Assembly (NCBI GenBank): GCA_027623555.1
Contig: JAQBSZ010000005.1
Coordinates: forward strand, 1-64,000
Length of the DNA: 64,000 nt
Direction of reading: 5' to 3'
Origin: Pseudomonadota bacterium
GTDB lineage: Bacteria > Pseudomonadota > Gammaproteobacteria > Pseudomonadales > Pseudohongiellaceae
In this document: positions 75 to 9,694 of the stretch, one piece after another
How positions within the stretch are numbered: position 1 is the first letter of the stretch
Layout: each line of letters starts with the position of its first letter
Translations under genes and position numbers: made by a program
Notes under the pieces: generated by a model
What the model was told of the DNA's origin: nothing
The model's database searches: none
Seen by the model: the letters and a program-made list of their open reading frames with translations, nothing else

Positions 75-297
75 GATTACCTTCTCAAAGTACTATGAAT
101 TGACTGCTGTGCTCGTTTGCCTCCCTTACCTCGCCCTGAGGGCGTGACCAGTCCCCTATGCTTGCTGTTCGGTGCGAAGATCCCATGAAATCTTGTCAAA
201 TTCGCTCTAGGTGTTGCATGGAATGTAATTTATCGGATATCAAAGGGGTATTTCCAAGCAGTAAGAAAGAGCATTGGCTATCTATACAAGCTCCATA

Positions 298-323
298 AAA
301 AAGGGGGCACAGGCCCCCTTTTT
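298..323 (-). terminator. Rho-independent terminator of the TonB receptor gene
   Basis: GGGGGC (303-308) pairs with GCCCCC (313-318) around the loop ACAG. The stem is flanked by five A on one side and five T on the other, so it can work on both strands. It lies 22 bases beyond the receptor stop codon. Confidence 0.85.
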
Positions 324-344
324 GTTACAGCACTAGCTGCCAGA

Positions 345-3242
345 CTAGTTGTTCAGCGAGTATGTAAACTCCATGCCATACAGGCGCGGCAGCGTGGTTG
401 CGGCTGTCTGTCGGAAGAACTCGGCCTGGCCATTGTTCAGAATCTGCAGTTTGCCCACTTCGTCAAAGATATTGTTGACGAAGCCGGAGACTACCCACTT
501 GCCGGAGCCAGAAGTCCAGGTTGCCCTGACGTCTGTCCTGCCGTAGGAAGGGGCTTTTTCATATTCACTCTGGAAGGATGAGAAATAGACCTCGTCAATC
601 CAGCTATAGACGCCGAATAAATCAATGGATCCGCTCGACAGCGGGATGCGATAACCCGCCCATGCGGTGTATTTAAGGTCCGGCACCTGCAGCAACTGAT
701 TGCCTTTGATGTTGGTTACCAGGCCTTCGAACGATGGAAACAGAGAACTTGGCCTGGAGACATTCGACGGGTCGCTGAGGAACAGATCTTCTGTATATTC
801 ACTTGGCGTGAAACTGAAGTTACCTCCCAGGGTGGTCCGGTCGGATGCCAGCCAGATCAGTTCCGCCTCGACACCGTAAATTTCAGCGCCAGGTGCTGCG
901 AGCGTCGAGGTGGTTACAGCCGACGCAGGTGAGCCGGGCAGCAGCCCGGGCGCGACTTCGGTAGCGACCGTGTGAATATTCTCATAGTCATAGTAGTAGA
1001 TTGAGCCGTTCAACTGGATCGTGTTATTGCGCATCTGACTCTTGTAACCGAGTTCATAGGCGACCAATTCTTCAGGTTCGTAAGTTGGAGACCGACTGAA
1101 GAATACAAGGTTGTAACCTCCGGAACGATATCCGGAAGTTGCCGACAGGTACATCAGGGTGTTGTCGGTAACGTTCCAGTCGAGGTTAACGCGGCCGGTC
1201 ACCTTGGTATCTTTTCGATTGAATGGGCGATACACGCTGATTGCTATCGGTACACCACCGTTAACGACGGTTGGAGTTGCACGGAATCCACCGGGAGCGG
1301 CTGTGTCGGCAACAAGACCCCCATTAATCTTGTTGTAGGTCGCGAGTGAAAGGCCGAACGCGCCGCCGGCAAAAGCGGCTCCACCGCCCTCGGTATAACG
1401 AAACAGATTCTCTTCGGCGGTCACTTCGTCTGACGCGTAGCGAATACCCATGGTCAATGTAAAGACATCATTGATATCCCATACGGCCTGGGTATATGCA
1501 GCATACGCTTCTCGCTTGGTTTGCGTGTGGTAAAGCAGATCCGTGGCCACAGTATTCGGCCCGTGCGATACATCCAGGTCAGACAGGGTACCGTTGTCAC
1601 CCTGCCATGAAGATATGTAGAGATTGTTGTTGGCCCGCGTTGGATTTTGTACGGCATAGTTGACCGCACAGGACGCGGCCGGAGTTGCCGCCGTTCGACA
1701 GACGGTTCTCGCGGAATGCAGAGTCGCCATAGGACGGTTGTTTCCAAAGAAGGAAAGTTCATCCAGACCGGTGTTGTCGGTGTAGGCGTTTGCAAATTTC
1801 CCCTCGCCGAGCGAGGAGTAGAAGTCGCCGCGTTGATCGATTGTCGCATCGTAGGAGAATATCCCGGACGTGAACGACAGCGAGTCGGTCAGCTCATAGA
1901 ACGCCTGCAATTCATGGGACTCGTAGGTGGCCTCATGATTTACGTAGAACTGGCGATCATGGAAGAGGCTGCCGGTGTTGTCGTCGTCGGTGGTGCGATA
2001 GTAAGACAGCTCGTTGTGTCCGTAGATATATTTCACCGTCACTGACTCGGACAGTTCAAATGTCGCAGTGAACTGGGTGCCATCCTGGTCAAACTGTTCC
2101 CGGTTAAGACCATTGGTTGCCGCGCAAACATCATCACCATCAACATCACTATCGAATACGCAGGCGTTATAGATCGCTGCGCTGGCTGCCGAGGTGTTGT
2201 TGAAGCCGTCGATTGAGGCGGCGGCATTCTGGAATCCATCGTTGGCGATTACATCAATGCCGGGTCGATTGCGCTGGGCCTGAACCATAGCGCCTGTAGC
2301 AGGATCGGTGAAATTCAGGATCGGCCGGGAGGCATCATAGAAGTTGCTCTGCTCGAAGTTTGCGATCGCGGTATTCGTCGTATCAATCCGGCGATAGCCG
2401 GGCACAAGATCGGTAGTGTTTCGGGTCGGTTCGCCGTCCTCGTTGAGGACTACCAGGCCGGCGCCATCGGCGCCACCGAAGGGCCGATCAATACGCATTT
2501 GGTTCATTCTGAGGTCGAAGGTGAGAGAGTCAGTGGGGGTCCACTTGAACAGAACCGCCGTGTTCTCTGTGCCAAGTCCGTCCAGGCCACCTCCTTGAGG
2601 GCCAATGTCCTTAACGACTCCATCGCGATCCCGCACACTGAAGTTGAGCCGTGCGGTTAAAACATCGTCGACAAGCGGGCCGGATATCATGCCATAGTAT
2701 TCCTGTGTGCCGAAGTTACCGATGATGCTCTTGAAGCCATAATCCAGTTCGTTAGTTGGCTCCTTGTAGAGAATGTTCATGGCGCCGCCGACGGCGTTAC
2801 GGCCATACAGGGTGCCTTGTGGTCCGCGCAAAACCTCGATGCGCTCCACGTCCCAGAAAGTGGCTGCGGTCGCGGTGAGCAGGTCTTCTGAATAGACACC
2901 ATTCATGTAGGTTGCAACGCCGGGGTCTCCACCCAATGCGCGAAAGTTACGCCCTACACCGCGAATAGTTGAGTCATAAGGCTGAATGGTAGTAGCAGGA
3001 ATGAAATTCTGTAGGTCTTCCTGATTTCTAATACCGAATTCGTCCAGAAACTCGGATGTAAATGCGGTTATCGATATGGAAGTATCCTGTATCGAGGCTT
3101 CCCTGCGTTCTGCAGTTACCATGACTTCTTCGATTTGTCTGTCCGGTGTTGCTTCGGCGGAAAATACAGCCTGGGTAAAGCCTGTGCTGAATAGAGTGGT
3201 TGCGACTGTCAACGGCAGAGTTACGGATTTAGCGCGTTTCAT
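345..3242 (-). CDS. TonB-dependent outer-membrane receptor
   Basis: A 965-residue outer-membrane receptor that would import a large substrate (siderophore, cobalamin, glycan or other nutrient) using energy from TonB-ExbB-ExbD. A signal peptide covers about residues 1-29. A TonB-box-like segment with EEVMVTAERRE follows near residues 38-48, then the plug domain (IRGVGRN, ERIEVLRGPQGTLYGRNAVGG near 134-155) and a long beta-barrel ending in FTYSLNN. The length and the LRGPQGTLYGRN motif fit the large CirA/FecA-like receptors of marine gammaproteobacteria. The ATG has a GGGGA-type ribosome site in AAAAAGGGGACCTAT. It is a lone gene: no sigma/anti-sigma pair, regulator or catabolic gene lies beside it, so the substrate cannot be inferred. 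It sits between IS remnants, so it may have been acquired. Confidence 0.93.
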   Translation of the reverse strand: MKRAKSVTLPLTVATTLFSTGFTQAVFSAEATPDRQIEEVMVTAERREASIQDTSISITAFTSEFLDEFGIRNQEDLQNFIPATTIQPYDSTIRGVGRNFRALGGDPGVATYMNGVYSEDLLTATAATFWDVERIEVLRGPQGTLYGRNAVGGAMNILYKEPTNELDYGFKSIIGNFGTQEYYGMISGPLVDDVLTARLNFSVRDRDGVVKDIGPQGGGLDGLGTENTAVLFKWTPTDSLTFDLRMNQMRIDRPFGGADGAGLVVLNEDGEPTRNTTDLVPGYRRIDTTNTAIANFEQSNFYDASRPILNFTDPATGAMVQAQRNRPGIDVIANDGFQNAAASIDGFNNTSAASAAIYNACVFDSDVDGDDVCAATNGLNREQFDQDGTQFTATFELSESVTVKYIYGHNELSYYRTTDDDNTGSLFHDRQFYVNHEATYESHELQAFYELTDSLSFTSGIFSYDATIDQRGDFYSSLGEGKFANAYTDNTGLDELSFFGNNRPMATLHSARTVCRTAATPAASCAVNYAVQNPTRANNNLYISSWQGDNGTLSDLDVSHGPNTVATDLLYHTQTKREAYAAYTQAVWDINDVFTLTMGIRYASDEVTAEENLFRYTEGGGAAFAGGAFGLSLATYNKINGGLVADTAAPGGFRATPTVVNGGVPIAISVYRPFNRKDTKVTGRVNLDWNVTDNTLMYLSATSGYRSGGYNLVFFSRSPTYEPEELVAYELGYKSQMRNNTIQLNGSIYYYDYENIHTVATEVAPGLLPGSPASAVTTSTLAAPGAEIYGVEAELIWLASDRTTLGGNFSFTPSEYTEDLFLSDPSNVSRPSSLFPSFEGLVTNIKGNQLLQVPDLKYTAWAGYRIPLSSGSIDLFGVYSWIDEVYFSSFQSEYEKAPSYGRTDVRATWTSGSGKWVVSGFVNNIFDEVGKLQILNNGQAEFFRQTAATTLPRLYGMEFTYSLNN

Positions 3243-4132: not shown

Positions 4133-4169
4133 TGAGTTAAGTGAAGTGCGCACAAATGGTAAAAAGGCA

Positions 4170-4655
4170 ACGCGTCCCTGCCCCTGCGGCCATGCCGGCG
4201 ACACCCGCCAGGCCTGTAGCTGTTCACCAGATCGCCTGCGCAACTATGTGGGTAAACTATCCGGGCCCCTGCTGGATCGCCTGGATCTACTGATAGAGGT
4301 GCCTGCTTTATCCCCGGCTGAACTGCTGGAACCCGAACAGTTGCCCATGGATTGGGAGTCGATTCGGCAGCGCATCGCCGACTGTCGTGCCTTGCAACTG
4401 CAGCGCAGCGGCAAACTCAATTCGGATCTTGGGGTAGAAGAACTGCTTGCGGTAAGCCCCTTGCCTGCTGCACGACGCTCGCGGCTGGCGCAAACCATGG
4501 AAAAACTCGGTATGTCCGCCCGCACTACCCATCGCGTCATCAAGGTGGCGCGCACGATAGCGGATTACAACCAAAGGCAGGATGTCACTGAGGCCGATCT
4601 GTTTGAGGCGATAAGCTATCGGCGTTGTGCCTTGCTGCGCTCACTGGTGCGCTGA
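4170..4655 (+). pseudogene. comM: 3' fragment of comM (Mg-chelatase-like AAA+ helicase)
   Basis: The reading frame matches only the last third of ComM (family length about 500 residues), the AAA+ helicase that promotes branch migration in natural transformation. Visible are PCPCGHAGD, the Cys-rich CSCSPDRL, KLSGPLLDRLDL and the C-terminal EADLFEAISYRR. The Walker A/B part and the whole N-terminus are missing. Homology starts abruptly near 4170, where XRE-gene DNA begins on the other strand, and ends with a stop at 4653-4655 against the IS256 fragment. It therefore looks like a gene destroyed by deletion or insertion. A functional comM elsewhere cannot be excluded. Confidence 0.8.
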
Positions 4656-5235
4656 GGTGGTCCATATTCACACCCAGAGCCGGGTAAATGGATTTGCTGA
4701 TAACCTGCTTGTCCTGCCGAATCTTGAGTACAATACAGTCCAGATACACGATGGGATAAATGGTATCCAGAGGTCGCGATTGCCAGTCAATGACCTGCTC
4801 AATCACGGCATCGGTAACTTTCGAGATCAGCGCAGCTGAAACATCCGCACCGTACATTTCCTTGAAGGTCTTGACGATCTCTCGGGTGGACAATCCCTGC
4901 GCGTACAAGAATAAAATCTTGTCATCCATTGAAGTGAAACGGCGCTGGTGCTTTTTGACCAACTGGGGCTCAAAACTGCCTTCTCTATCGCGAGGCGTGT
5001 TCAGATCGAACTGGCCATCTTCGGTCTGCAGGGTTTTGCTGGTGTAGCCATTACGGCTGTTGGAGCAGTCGGAGTGCTCGTGCTTGTCAAAGCCCAAGTG
5101 ATGATCCATTTCACCATTAAGAGCAGCTTCAACAGTGATTTTAGTGAGCATCTGCCTGAACTCATTGAGGTCAGCTTCAGTCTTGATGCTCTTTGCGGCC
5201 GTATTGGCCAGTGCTTGAAGATCTTTCCTATTCAT
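4656..5235 (-). pseudogene. Truncated IS256-family transposase
   Basis: The first ~195 residues of a DDE transposase of the IS256 (mutator-like) family; full members have about 400. Recognisable are HHLGFDKHEHS, SRNGYTSKTLQTEDG, LNTPRDREGSFEPQLVKKHQ and the segment with the first catalytic Asp, YLDCIVLKIRQDK. The match stops at YPALGVNMDH. The frame then runs on into antisense comM, so the second Asp and the Glu of the triad are missing and the protein is inactive. The start ATG at 5235 lies just inside the IS terminal repeat, so this is the 5' half of an IS cut off at the comM junction. Confidence 0.85.
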
Positions 5236-5383: not shown

Positions 5384-6676
5384 TTACCTCTCTGGATAGT
5401 CCACTTTAATCCGCGACTTAGCTACCGAGCCTGTCGAATTAGCGTGCTCATGCCACGCCCTCAACATAGCTTCCTCCGCCCACTCTTCATTGCACTGCAC
5501 TACAGCGACTGCGTCGTGAACTGGCAAAGCTACGATGCCTGCATCAACTCCTTCGAGCATCACCTGCCTCAATATCTGCCCCTCAAGGTTTTGCGCCAGA
5601 ATACCGAAGCCGCTAAATAGCCTTACTTTCGGATAGCGCTTTAGTGTTGCGGCCTCTAGCTTTTCAAACAGCTTCTTGCTTATACGCTCTCGATAAGAAG
5701 CGTTTAGAGCACCCTCCCGATCACTCGCGCCCATAGCAATTGTTATAAACGACTTGATCCGCTGCCGGTCGTCAAAGCCTGCTAGCTCGCCTATGTCTTC
5801 GTAGGGACTCTCTCCTGCATCCTCACCTGCAAATACAGCCAGGTTCAATCTGATGTGGTTAGCACTAAAGTCCACTTCACAGATCGGCTGCCCGTCGATG
5901 AGGGTGTTAATTCTGAGACGCATCTTCTTGTCTGGGAGAGATTGGAAAGGCGTCGTAAGCCTGCCTGACTGAAATGGGTCGTGTTTGTAAGTAAGCCTCA
6001 CTGGAGCTTTACAAGCCCAAGAGTGTCCCTTCAAGAACTCATTGATTAATGTCATCCCAACCAAGTCAGGATGATCGTCGTCTAACTCGGCAATCACTTC
6101 GCCATAACCGCCATGTGGTTCGTTAATGGTTACGTATGGAGGCTCTATAGGTTGCTCAGCTTCGAGGAAGCACTTCCACAGCGTTCTCTGCAGCTCTTTA
6201 GTCGGATAGATGCGAGTTCTGAGCGGTTGTTTGCTGTATTTCTTGCCAGGAAGTCTCTCGATAACTCCCTGAGCGGTCAGGGCTTCAACGATGTCTTTCA
6301 TATAGGTCTGTGATAGTCCGTATCTCTTCAACCAATAGTCTTTAGCGTAGGCATGCTTATCTAGAGCAACAAGCGTCCATTGACGAACGTACATACCCCT
6401 ACTCAGATTAAGAAGCATATAGAGTAGATGACGTTCTAGCTCTGCTAGTTGCTTAGGCCCCCTTTTGCCGCCGAGACCACCCATGCAAAACCGCACAAAG
6501 CCTTCGATGCTTTGATAGGAAGGCTTAGCTTTATCTAGGACTAATGGAGTTAAGAAGCGGTGGTGGTCGGTGTCATCAGGAGGATACTCACTGTATGACT
6601 CCAACAAGGAATGGAGGAGCTTCTGGTTCTCTATAGCCGCTGTAGAACTAGAGGCTATGTTACTGGACCCTGTCAT
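5384..6676 (-). CDS. Protein with family A DNA polymerase-like palm motifs
   Basis: A 430-residue protein that would usually be called hypothetical. Residues about 115-145 (RYGLSQTYMKDIVEALTAQG) resemble a winged helix. The C-terminal half carries a series that matches family A polymerases in order. EVDFSANHIRL (267-277) resembles motif A (D-Y/F-S-x3-I/L-R). PYEDIGELAG (291-300) stands where DIHxxTA lies. DRQRIKSFITIAMG (303-316) has the R-x3-K of motif B. ILRQVMLEGVDAG then leads to LPVHDAVAV (384-392), resembling motif C (HD). No 3'-5' or 5'-3' exonuclease domain is present. The likely role is replication or repair synthesis of the integrative element; this is inferred from motifs read by eye. 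The motif C glutamate of Pol I is replaced by Ala389, and motif B lacks the usual Phe. Its upstream region has direct repeats. Confidence 0.7.
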   Translation of the reverse strand: MTGSSNIASSSTAAIENQKLLHSLLESYSEYPPDDTDHHRFLTPLVLDKAKPSYQSIEGFVRFCMGGLGGKRGPKQLAELERHLLYMLLNLSRGMYVRQWTLVALDKHAYAKDYWLKRYGLSQTYMKDIVEALTAQGVIERLPGKKYSKQPLRTRIYPTKELQRTLWKCFLEAEQPIEPPYVTINEPHGGYGEVIAELDDDHPDLVGMTLINEFLKGHSWACKAPVRLTYKHDPFQSGRLTTPFQSLPDKKMRLRINTLIDGQPICEVDFSANHIRLNLAVFAGEDAGESPYEDIGELAGFDDRQRIKSFITIAMGASDREGALNASYRERISKKLFEKLEAATLKRYPKVRLFSGFGILAQNLEGQILRQVMLEGVDAGIVALPVHDAVAVVQCNEEWAEEAMLRAWHEHANSTGSVAKSRIKVDYPER

Positions 6677-7318: not shown

Positions 7319-8212
7319 ATGAGGCTTCTTAACAACACACTACTCAAGACCTGCACCATTGCTGCCTCTTCATTGTTACTGATAGCCCTTGCCAACCCAG
7401 CCTCAGCGGCGCGGAAATGCTCTCCTCGTGTTGGTGTTTCAGGAGGGGACATATTTATGGATGACATTCAACGCTGTCCATCCAACTATCATGACATGGG
7501 TGTCACAAATAGCTCACTTGGAGGTCTATCTACTACAGGCTCTACCTCAAACCGAAGTGCTATTTCTTCAATCGGCGACACCGCGAATCAATTAGCAGCT
7601 CAGCGCGCAGCTCAGCGCGCGGCTCAGCAACAGCAGCAACACGAGCAAGCTTTGGTCAATGCCCAATTAGAGGAGCGCCGCTCAGCAGAGCGTCACCAGA
7701 ACAGCTTCTTGCCGCCTGATTCACAGTGTTTAGCTGGCTCATGGCGAATGCATACCGCAGAAACCAATGAATCGGTACAATTGGCAATTCCGCTAAACGG
7801 CGCAATCAGCTTCGATGGTTCTGAAATACCAGTCATTCCAATTTATGTTGGCAGCTCTTTTAGCCTGGTTTATAGAGAATCAGCTGGCGGCTTCGAAATA
7901 GATGGACGGCTGAACAATGGAATATTGGAAGGGTCTGTGATGATGGTGATGACGAAGAATGGTTTCTGGAAGGACACATCCGTTCGACAGAGAGGGGATT
8001 ATACAGCGACAAGGATCACTGCGATACCTTCCGGCTGCGATCAAGAAGGCGTTAGCGCTATCGGCCCAACTTCTTCATCTCCTTCTGAATCATCATCGGA
8101 GCGTGGAAAGAATTTGGTCGATAGCCTTAACCAACTAAATCAACTGCATCAGGAAGGAATCCTTAGTGATGAGGAGTATGGCGCCGCTAAGCGACGCCTA
8201 TTGGGTCTCTAG
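7319..8212 (+). CDS. Secreted SHOCT-domain protein, function unknown
   Basis: 297 residues. A clear signal peptide (hydrophobic IAASSLLLIALA, cleavage after ANPASA near residue 30) sends it to the periplasm or beyond; there is no lipobox. Residues about 90-125 are an Ala/Gln-rich helix with a small repeat (AAQRAAQRAAQQQQQ), encoded by repeated GCTCAGCGCGC DNA. The middle (about 135-235) looks like a compact beta domain starting CLAGSWRMHTAE. After a Ser-rich linker the C-terminus LNQLHQEGILSDEEYGAAKR is a SHOCT motif, a short domain often found at protein ends and thought to mediate oligomerisation. It is convergent with the integrase and is the only candidate cargo gene of the element. I do not recognise the central domain. 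Confidence 0.75.
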   Translation: MRLLNNTLLKTCTIAASSLLLIALANPASAARKCSPRVGVSGGDIFMDDIQRCPSNYHDMGVTNSSLGGLSTTGSTSNRSAISSIGDTANQLAAQRAAQRAAQQQQQHEQALVNAQLEERRSAERHQNSFLPPDSQCLAGSWRMHTAETNESVQLAIPLNGAISFDGSEIPVIPIYVGSSFSLVYRESAGGFEIDGRLNNGILEGSVMMVMTKNGFWKDTSVRQRGDYTATRITAIPSGCDQEGVSAIGPTSSSPSESSSERGKNLVDSLNQLNQLHQEGILSDEEYGAAKRRLLGL

Positions 8213-8288: not shown

Positions 8289-9527
8289 TCATAGGGCTTC
8301 GTCAAGATTAACACCCCTCAAATCCACATCCGTCGATTCGGTTTTATCGACATCATATGTAGCAAGTATTTCATCTTCAATTGTCTGAATAATTGGCCTC
8401 AGCGCCTCCGCTGTTCGCTGAACATATCCCTCTGTTACGTTTTTATTGGAGTGATTGAGTAGCCTGCCAATCTGATCAGTGCTAAAGCCATGTTGCGCCG
8501 CGACGGTGGCAGCAGTTCTTCGCAGGTCATGAGCTGTAAACTCGATTGCAAGAGCATCAGCGGCGTTCTTAATTACGGACGACATTGACGCTACCTCGAC
8601 TACTTTGCCGGGAAACACATAGGGGCTACCATTCTGGTTTCTATCAAATAGAGACTGCACTGTTGAGGTGATTGGCAGGGTATGGTCTTCTCCGTTTTTG
8701 GTATTGGTGATGGTATAAGTGCTGCCAGTGATGTTCTCCCACTTCAACAATCGAGCCTCGTCTAAGCGAAGCCCTGTCACCATCAGAAGCAAGATAAAGT
8801 CCGCCTGTGCTGGCTTGAGCTTGCCTGCATAGCCTGGATGCCGAACGCGACTCAACTCTGCAAACAATGCCCTCCTCTCCGCGCTCTCCAGAAATCGCTT
8901 CCGTTCCTTTAGCTTCTTCCTAGCCTTCTTGTCCTTTAGCACCAAAACAGGATTGCCGTCTGGGAGGAGTGGCTGACCTTGGTACGTATCGTTGGCATAA
9001 CTGTTCAGAATCGCTGAGAGATAGCGCATCGACTTTTGAGCGTCTGAAAGCCCTCTAGGATTCGCCTTTTCAGGCTGGAGTGCTCTCTTACTAATGCCCT
9101 GCTGGATTGCCTGATAGCGCTTAACAATCCCCTGTCTGGATATACTGCGTATAGGCTTATCAGCCCAATCTCCGAAAGATCGGATAATCACTTGTCGGTA
9201 GGACTTTATAGTGGATGGTTTAAGAGCACGGAGTTCCAGATACTCTTCAAGTGCCTCTTGAAGCGTAATTCCAAGCTGCTGGTCTGCTTCTCTGTTCTTC
9301 CGAGCTTCTAGATTAGGGTTGATACCTGCCGCCAACATAGCTAGTTTTTCTTTAGCCAGTCTTCGAGCCAATCGAGCATCGATGACATCGACGCGTCCGA
9401 GGGTTATTGTAACTGGCGTGTTTACACCGCGCTGCTTAGCTTTAACAACCCACTTGTTGCCTGTAGCTCTTTCTCTTTGATATAAGCCGCGTAACTGAGA
9501 GTCTGGAACAAACATGAATTTAGACAC
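8289..9527 (-). CDS. Tyrosine-type site-specific integrase
   Basis: A 412-residue phage/island integrase that cuts and joins att sites through a 3'-phosphotyrosine. An N-terminal arm-binding segment (about 1-85, with TPVTITLGRVD and LAMLAAGINPNLEARKNR) is followed by a SAM-like core-binding domain (87-185) and the catalytic domain. The catalytic set is complete: R254 in TGLRLDEARLLKW, K277 in TNTKNGEDHTLPI, H333 and R336 in HDLRRTAAT, H359 in LLNHSN, and Y368 in EGYVQ. It lies between the SHOCT gene (convergent) and the 3' end of tRNA-Leu. tRNA 3' ends are favoured targets of this family. Confidence 0.95.
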   Translation of the reverse strand: MSKFMFVPDSQLRGLYQRERATGNKWVVKAKQRGVNTPVTITLGRVDVIDARLARRLAKEKLAMLAAGINPNLEARKNREADQQLGITLQEALEEYLELRALKPSTIKSYRQVIIRSFGDWADKPIRSISRQGIVKRYQAIQQGISKRALQPEKANPRGLSDAQKSMRYLSAILNSYANDTYQGQPLLPDGNPVLVLKDKKARKKLKERKRFLESAERRALFAELSRVRHPGYAGKLKPAQADFILLLMVTGLRLDEARLLKWENITGSTYTITNTKNGEDHTLPITSTVQSLFDRNQNGSPYVFPGKVVEVASMSSVIKNAADALAIEFTAHDLRRTAATVAAQHGFSTDQIGRLLNHSNKNVTEGYVQRTAEALRPIIQTIEDEILATYDVDKTESTDVDLRGVNLDEAL

Positions 9528-9607: not shown

Positions 9608-9694
9608 TGGTGCCCGGGGCCGGAATTGAACCGGCATGGCCTTGCGGCCGAGGGATTTTAAGTCCCTTGTGTCTACCAATTTCACCACCCGGGC
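9608..9694 (-). tRNA. tRNA-Leu (anticodon TAA)
   Basis: 87 nt with encoded CCA. The acceptor stem GCCCGGG/CCCGGGC, the anticodon loop ACTTAAAAT giving TAA, a long variable arm and the TTCAATTCC T-loop identify a class II leucine tRNA. Its 3' end faces the integrase, which makes it the likely attachment gene. Confidence 0.95.

Follow-up and report, generated by a model that had tools for sequence, protein, structure and literature searches.

A divPolA2-like polymerase-fold protein encoded near tyrosine recombinases in small integrative elements

The analysis presented here places a compact protein of the window (the whole 64,000-nt stretch of contig JAQBSZ010000005.1, Pseudohongiellaceae) in the divPolA2/phrog_4756 family, as judged from its sequence matches, and finds its relatives often close to tyrosine recombinases. 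The polymerase and the recombinase may constitute the core genes of small elements located at tRNA or similar RNA genes, mostly in Gammaproteobacteria, with the polymerase replicating or priming the element; we put the probability of this joint reading at about one half. Its computed support consists of the family, the fold, the conserved active site, the recurrent recombinase and RNA-gene neighbours and one insertion for which a relative has the empty site. The novelty appears to lie in the integrative-element context of divPolA2, not in the family itself. The features of the window are listed below, with the residue numbers of E. coli Pol I and T7 RNA polymerase (RNAP) at paired positions.

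5384..6676 (-), divPolA2-like (phrog_4756) polymerase-fold protein, 430 aa (ORF, PHROGs, AlphaFold2 fold and conservation)
5390..6154 (-), predicted palm/fingers domain, about residues 175-429 (VIA-align ranges mostly within 173..430, Z up to 14.0)
5501..5527 (-), motif C, LPVHDAVAV, residues 384-392, with H387 and the predicted catalytic D388 (model, hhalign and conservation)
5729..5767 (-), motif B helix, from R304-x3-K308 to G316, the latter at the position of Pol I Tyr766 and T7 RNAP Tyr639 (model, hhalign and conservation)
5846..5878 (-), motif A, EVDFSANHIRL, residues 267-277, with the predicted catalytic D269 and with H274 at the Pol I E710 position
5960..5965 (-), motif 1, G238-R239, pairing with the Arg of Pol I 'TGRLSS' (hhalign and conservation)
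6203..6457 (-), probable winged-helix segment, about residues 74-158 (model of residues 34-185, weak structure matches)
7319..8212 (+), SHOCT-domain protein between integrase and polymerase, probable cargo (PF09851, E 1.3e-6)
8289..9527 (-), tyrosine recombinase (integrase), 412 aa (PF00589, E 4.7e-19; phrog_1, E 3.3e-51)
9608..9694 (-), tRNA-Leu(taa), presumed integration site

In PHROGs, the window protein matched phrog_4756 at 3.1e-17, the divPolA2 reference AUR84708 (L106:25469-26761) matched it at 1.8e-91 and gp100 of phage ICP1 (L105:11536-13203) at 2.5e-163. Since all three fall in phrog_4756, the idea of a family new to science was rejected: it corresponds to divPolA2, described from tailed phages (PMC11348598). 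The preliminary description had noted that such a protein would usually be passed over as hypothetical; PHROGs lists phrog_4756 under 'unknown function'. A profile made from 18 window-like rows gave AUR84708 28 bits and E. coli PolA -1.6 bits. ICP1 is a much-studied Vibrio phage, and its gp100 is annotated as hypothetical. General family databases were silent: Pfam returned a single match (E 0.023) under its cut-off for the window protein, NCBIfam and PADLOC returned none, PF00476 (DNA_pol_A) had no match up to E 10 in the window protein and nine relatives, and the Pfam RNA polymerase families had none up to E 10 in the window protein. According to the account of Yutin et al. (2024), divPolA2 occurs in barbaviruses and other phages, keeps the palm, lacks the exonuclease and the canonical thumb, and has an N-terminal domain without detected similarity; a repair DNA polymerase or an RNA polymerase was proposed, and the barbavirus protein, whose gene lies in variable neighbourhoods, was thought not to be the replicase, a regular PolB being present (PMC11348598). 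The window protein resembles divPolA2 in its palm motifs A, B and C, its separate N-terminal domain and the absence of an exonuclease. The words integrase and mobile do not occur in the main text of that article. The term 'divPolA2' was found only there and in its preprint, and literature searches, with subscription journals mostly outside their coverage, returned no paper on divPolA2 in integrative elements. Islands at tmRNA have been described (PMC12595487), with no polymerase as far as that account goes.

The ORF at 5384..6676 (-) was intact, with an ATG start, 430 aa and no internal stops, in line with the 430-residue protein of the preliminary description. Motifs A, B and C were also found where that description had put them and in the same order (EVDFSANHIRL at 267-277, R304/K308 and LPVHDAVAV at 384-392), and they were near-invariant in an alignment of 80 relatives, restricted to non-identical rows of at least 190 aa with an E of 1e-20 or better and with gaps left out of the counts. 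Specifically, D269 was present in 79 out of 79, R304 in 78 out of 80, K308 in 80 out of 80, H387 in 76 out of 77 and D388 in 77 out of 77; an initial alignment of 11 relatives had shown no variation at these five residues. R239 (78/79), R255 (79/79) and Y292 (80/80) were conserved to a similar degree in the larger set. When aligned by hhalign to a family A alignment, R239, D269, R304 and K308 paired with the motif-1 Arg, D705, R754 and K758 of E. coli Pol I (P 4.5e-4), and a second, weaker local alignment paired H387-D388 with the Pol I 'HD' (P 0.028). Against T7 RNAP, H387-D388 paired with 'HDS' (P 0.0048) and R304/K308 with 627/631 (P 0.27). The target alignments held 32 rows for Pol I and 6 for T7 RNAP. 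As the hhalign probabilities were low (33% at best against Pol A and 7% at best against T7 RNAP), we built the case on fold and conservation. Chance motifs in an unrelated protein were considered and rejected, because fold, conservation and profile alignment concur.

Positions of the E710 and Y766 type usually sort ribose from deoxyribose, the Glu at E710 of Pol I being the ribose gate. The canonical Pol I set of E710, Y766 and HDE was absent: the window protein has H274, G316 and A389, and its relatives mostly have H, N/G and S/A. In the 80-relative alignment, position 274 was H in 68 of 79, position 316 was N in 56, G in 13, S in 5, Y in 3 and another residue in 3 of 80, and position 389 was S in 54, A in 18, G in 4 and E in 1 of 77. 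Judged from these alignments, the family retains both predicted catalytic Asp residues, and the residues that sort ribose from deoxyribose are changed. The Ala in motif C had been taken as a reason to doubt activity; as the family normally has S, A or G at this position, we read Ala389 as no sign of inactivity and rejected an inactive window protein on that ground. T7 RNAP likewise does without the motif C Glu.

The structure model pointed to the same enzyme class. AlphaFold2, run on alignment A4 (53 sequences), gave a model of the window protein with a pLDDT of 92.9 and a pTM of 0.90, in which strand 263-270 contains D269 and the hairpin 384-386/389-393 has D388 at its turn. In a Foldseek search of the PDB, the best 50 rows were all family A DNA polymerases (top E 2.1e-5, 40 rows at 0.001 or below). 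VIA-align 2, run on the top 1000 Foldseek chains and with Z differences below 1 regarded as ties, gave Z 14.0 for mitochondrial RNA polymerase (238 aligned, 3.8 A), 13.3 for the apicoplast polymerase (220 aligned, 3.5 A), 13.0 for T7 RNAP (237 aligned, 3.3 A) and 12.9 for Taq (228 aligned, 3.7 A). On this model, the window protein is predicted to share its palm/fingers fold with family A DNA polymerases and with single-subunit RNA polymerases, an assignment that covers the families listed by VIA-align, as does that of the winged helix below. The structural check by AlphaFold2, Foldseek and VIA-align hence bore out a family A type palm with the motifs in place, which supports the earlier proposal of a family A DNA polymerase except for the word 'DNA'; this is too specific, because mitochondrial and T7 RNA polymerases match equally well. 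The best matches among viral models were phage proteins without a function (from E 5.5e-18 down), one of them, from Rheinheimera phage Barba31A, being named 'DNA polymerase'.

The model matches included no exonuclease domain, as had been anticipated; specifically, none appeared among the Foldseek and VIA rows for the first 174 residues. The modelled protein therefore appears to lack an exonuclease, and a canonical thumb was not recognised in it. For the N-terminal part, a winged helix had been suggested, and weak matches favoured it. AlphaFold2 of residues 34-185 alone reached a pLDDT of 90.2, with an order of helices and strands that looked winged-helix-like by eye. Most of the best 50 Foldseek rows with this model were winged-helix regulators (MarR, ArsR and others), all weak (best E 0.015); the best VIA-align score, Z 6.6 over 74 residues, lay below the level of trust advised for the tool, and a profile search gave seven winged-helix-type chains at E 0.35-0.9. 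Although each match is weak, together they make a winged helix probable for a domain to which the published account of divPolA2 assigned no similarity (PMC11348598).

The preliminary description had placed the gene in a tRNA-linked integrative element. The integrase and the tRNA-Leu are real, but the far end of the element was not found in the window. Between the integrase and the 3' end of tRNA-Leu there are 80 bp; the integrase is upstream of the polymerase gene and on the same strand, and the SHOCT-domain protein between them is, from its position, probably cargo. A search for exact and mismatched repeats found no partner of the tRNA-Leu 3' end within the window, and the left flanks of tRNA-Leu in genus relatives gave only tRNA, IS-like, recombinase-like and short matches, with no empty site for the window. 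To the left of the polymerase lies a truncated Mutator-type transposase (4585-5235), its end overlapped by a C-terminal ComM fragment (4146-4655) that is 70% identical to a longer ComM on contig C69 of the same genome. With the second att not found and these fragments on the left, the window copy may be immobile. Each of the five 1-kb steps between 5 and 10 kb had a G+C content of 47-50%, which is a weak sign, as 11 of the 59 other steps also fell below 50%. In a further genome (G025, L130:1772-11707), a 57-bp partial repeat of tRNA-Leu was found about 10 kb away, and beside it a recombinase related to that of the window; for this reason tRNA-Leu is probably an integration hot spot.

A search of 146 relatives' genomes with the window protein gave a match in 7 and a search of 274 genomes of the class with alignment A1 gave a match in 5, the own genome included in both; the latter carries a second copy, at a contig end (C54). 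Scanning of genome contigs yielded 21 loci (L081-L101), mostly gammaproteobacterial by title and many of them marine; the titles also included two Bacteroidota and one Sedimentisphaerales, and L081 is the locus of the HTCC2207 homologue. A tyrosine recombinase lay within 4.1 kb of the polymerase in 12 of the 21 as a raw count (L081, L082, L084, L086, L088, L092, L093, L096, L097, L098, L099 and L101), that of L096 being a 53-aa fragment at a contig end. The nine others (L083, L085, L087, L089, L090, L091, L094, L095 and L100) had none in the flanks examined, several of which were short on one side; L083 and L085, both with an intact polymerase ORF, lacked a nearby recombinase and a nearby tRNA. 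To the earlier question whether homologues always sit beside an integrase, the answer is 'often', and many family members belong to phage genomes. Recombinases were also present near members on plasmid or viral loci, namely L020 (13 bp away), L021, L028, L031, L077 and L040.

The recombinase profile had been seeded with eleven ORFs picked by eye, ten of them from neighbour lists near the polymerase. Among ten recombinases compared with Pfam, eight were above the PF00589 cut-off, L084 was below it and L088 was unmatched; phrog_1 supported the last two (5.8e-16 and 5.5e-7, respectively), and L101 matched phrog_216 at 5.6e-35. The subtypes (DUF6538-type, Arm-DNA-bind_3, Int_N) varied within the same polymerase clade, and the polymerase therefore pairs with several kinds of integrase. 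The recombinase was upstream and on the same strand in the window, L081, L082, L086, L088, L092, L093, L096, L097, L099, L007 and L020, and arranged otherwise in L084, L098, L101, L021, L028, L031, L077 and L040. Polymerase copies were broken or cut in L095, L098, L099 and L100.

RNA genes were the other recurrent neighbours. A tRNA gene lay within 3.2 kb of the polymerase in 12 of the 21 loci, this cut-off having been set after the distances were viewed (the largest was 3,175 bp). With the cut-off chosen post hoc, 13 tRNA genes were counted in 119 kb of near sequence and 4 in 191 kb of far sequence (binomial p 0.0016). L089 and L094 gave marginal tRNA-like matches. At L098:11663-13333, the recombinase had an RNase P RNA gene, a non-tRNA integration site, some 60 bp away. 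In L101, an int-alpA RNA (RF02996, L101:9085-9154) ended 10 bp before the polymerase ORF, the recombinase being 4 kb further on; among nine loci scanned, this was the only one with such an RNA ahead of the polymerase. Repeated tRNA ends marked the limits of four elements.

L092, 3,887 bp, repeat of 20 bp
L088, 5,039 bp, repeat of 15 bp
L099, 7,900 bp, repeat of 61 bp
L082, 8,567 bp, repeat of 27 bp

The L088 insertion is absent from the relative G444, which provides the empty site: there (L197), the left flank of L088 (6005-7510, with short matches to 7670) adjoins tRNA-Leu (12953 on, 97% over 99 bp), with a 20/20 bp match across the att. Two further genomes (G447 and G448) have about 300 bp beside the tRNA in common with the inside of the L088 element and may carry insertions related to it. 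In L092, the ORFs of at least 60 aa comprised, besides those of recombinase and polymerase, one for a cytochrome c, one of 128 aa and one lying over the tRNA. L088 held the recombinase, the polymerase, an LRR_5 protein and a 106-aa ORF; in L099 the polymerase was broken, and the recombinase was accompanied by a DoxX and two Sel1 proteins; L082 also encoded one HTH-type, one Sel1 and one Helicase_C protein. This last protein was the only one with a replication-type domain among the ten longer cargo proteins scanned from the four elements.

The family also occurs in phages. One viral-contig member matched 115 of 50,697 phage records, 94 of these from Vibrio. Viral contigs scanned with single sequences gave 0 relatives; the scan with alignment A3 gave at least 51 among the matches listed (600 stretches). 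In a quick tree of 75 rows of at least 230 aa, the window protein fell in a 17-row chromosomal clade (support 99), nine rows of which had a recombinase. Unlike the published phage divPolA2 (PMC11348598), this clade is chromosomal and often lies near recombinase and tRNA genes. It adjoins three phage rows, which lie beside a UvsW-like helicase (read from the sequence by eye), and is separate from most phage rows. Its all-chromosomal make-up is partly a product of sampling, because most rows came from patterns built on the closest relatives of the window protein; the same closest-relative alignment gave only 2 loci in viral contigs. Among 54 phage loci, near-copies included, no neighbour cluster was common to more than eight, and those eight shared small proteins.

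Several arrangements near family members were observed in passing. A small Cys-rich protein with a C..C...W..Q/DV...C...C pattern, read by eye, was encoded near the polymerase at L024:2285-2641, L025:973-1290 and L093:9724-9912. On a Paracoccus plasmid (L020:1-7194), two recombinase-polymerase pairs stood in tandem, the first partial within the stretch. L040:1-11102 and L173 are one IMG/VR contig of 21.4 kb, in which L040 has three tandem units of a small RHH-like ORF, a 215-aa tyrosine recombinase and a divPolA2-like ORF; the units are 99.6-100% alike, with spacings of 4659 and 3347, and terminase, portal and capsid-like ORFs, read by eye, stand beside them. The same contig encodes a 487-aa ORF (L173:352-1815, -) with a family A-like pattern seen by eye (YDVDIANCHWSLL, K..LLAVVYGA, LQHDGLTV). 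This ORF differs from the divPolA2 rows and may represent an additional polymerase family.

Two known types of mobile element are close in layout. Pipolins, whose hallmark is the gene for piPolB, a family B polymerase that needs no primer, are integrative elements with tyrosine recombinases and att repeats; those of E. coli nearly always occupy tRNA-Leu (PMC7385651). Like them, L082, L088, L092 and L099 have a polymerase gene, a tyrosine recombinase and tRNA-associated att repeats; the window has a recombinase and tRNA-Leu, and the search for a second att there found none. Unlike in pipolins, the polymerase palm is predicted to be of family A type; no family B polymerase was found among six window ORFs scanned. 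PICMI are marine satellites of about 6 kb with an integrase and one replication gene (prim), which form concatemeric DNA, lie beside fis and carry alpA (PMC10803314). The elements described here resemble them in small size, in an integrase with one polymerase-type gene and in marine hosts. They differ from the int-alpA-prim set in that the ten cargo proteins of the four elements and the scanned window ORFs gave no primase or AlpA match.

How might such an element work? We favour, at even odds, a window protein that acts as the element's own replication or priming polymerase, with the winged helix choosing the start site; the models for this are piPolB of pipolins (PMC7385651) and prim of PICMI (PMC10803314). 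The recombinase would excise the element as a circle, the winged helix would bind a site (the origin) on it, and the palm domain would start or extend a strand at the bound site. The element would thus be copied, perhaps only with host or phage help, and then reintegrate or be packaged. In this scheme we infer an active enzyme, replication or priming of the element and origin recognition by the winged helix. A core role is suggested because the association with the recombinase holds across differing cargo. A bolder version, which we consider rather doubtful, would add the recombinase-polymerase elements, the smallest of them below 4 kb, to polintons, casposons and pipolins as another self-synthesising integrative kind; a miniature family A-type primase-polymerase would drive them, and its winged helix would mark the origin.

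Because H, G/N and A/S stand in place of the E710-type Glu, the Tyr of motif B and the Glu of motif C in Pol I, substrate and priming are not readable from these positions, and an RNA product has to be weighed. The protein could be a dedicated RNA polymerase of the T7/mitochondrial type or an RNA primase, its N-terminal domain recognising a promoter or origin and its RNA transcribing the element or priming the host DNA polymerase; Yutin et al. also raised an RNA polymerase (PMC11348598). The likeness lies in the palm/fingers fold, with scores (Z 13-14) tied with those of DNA polymerases, in the HD-S/A motif C shared with T7 RNAP and in the His at the E710 position, and some RNA polymerase VIA rows start at model residue 45-55 (aligning as many as 343 residues, with an rmsd of about 6 A or more), which leaves room for an N-terminal likeness as well. 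The protein is, on the other hand, about half the size of these enzymes, has no Pfam RNA polymerase match and mostly has Asn or Gly (Tyr in 3 of 80) in place of O-helix Tyr 639 of T7 RNAP; the best Foldseek rows were DNA polymerases throughout, and hhalign favoured Pol I (P 4.5e-4 vs 4.8e-3, from alignments of 32 vs 6 rows). We regard this alternative as possible, at a lower probability than the element's own polymerase.

A non-replicative role is conceivable too, since barbaviruses with divPolA2 also have a regular PolB (PMC11348598). The protein would then be a repair or translesion-type polymerase, carried as cargo to help the host or phage survive damage; the variable gene neighbourhoods in barbaviruses (PMC11348598) and the UvsW-like helicase beside the three phage rows that adjoin the chromosomal clade agree with this, but in the delimited elements it is the polymerase that adjoins the recombinase while the other genes (Sel1, LRR, DoxX, cytochrome c) vary, and the 3.9-kb element has so few ORFs beside these two that we find cargo unlikely. 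Least probable, and by a wide measure improbable, is a phage-interference or defence factor of islands and rival phages. Its occurrence in both phages and chromosomal islands would suit such a factor, and PICMI satellites protect their hosts from other phages (PMC10803314); a known defence protein was nevertheless not supported, as five members tested had no PADLOC-DB match, and the strictly conserved polymerase active site and the adjacency to recombinases fit a core role better.

Altogether, divPolA2 is a widespread polymerase family, and elements with about four ORFs offer a small natural setting for its role. If the polymerase replicates these elements, mobile elements with their own polymerase would gain a family A-type branch. 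Should the self-synthesising reading be true, large phages would have recruited the same enzyme, or the reverse.
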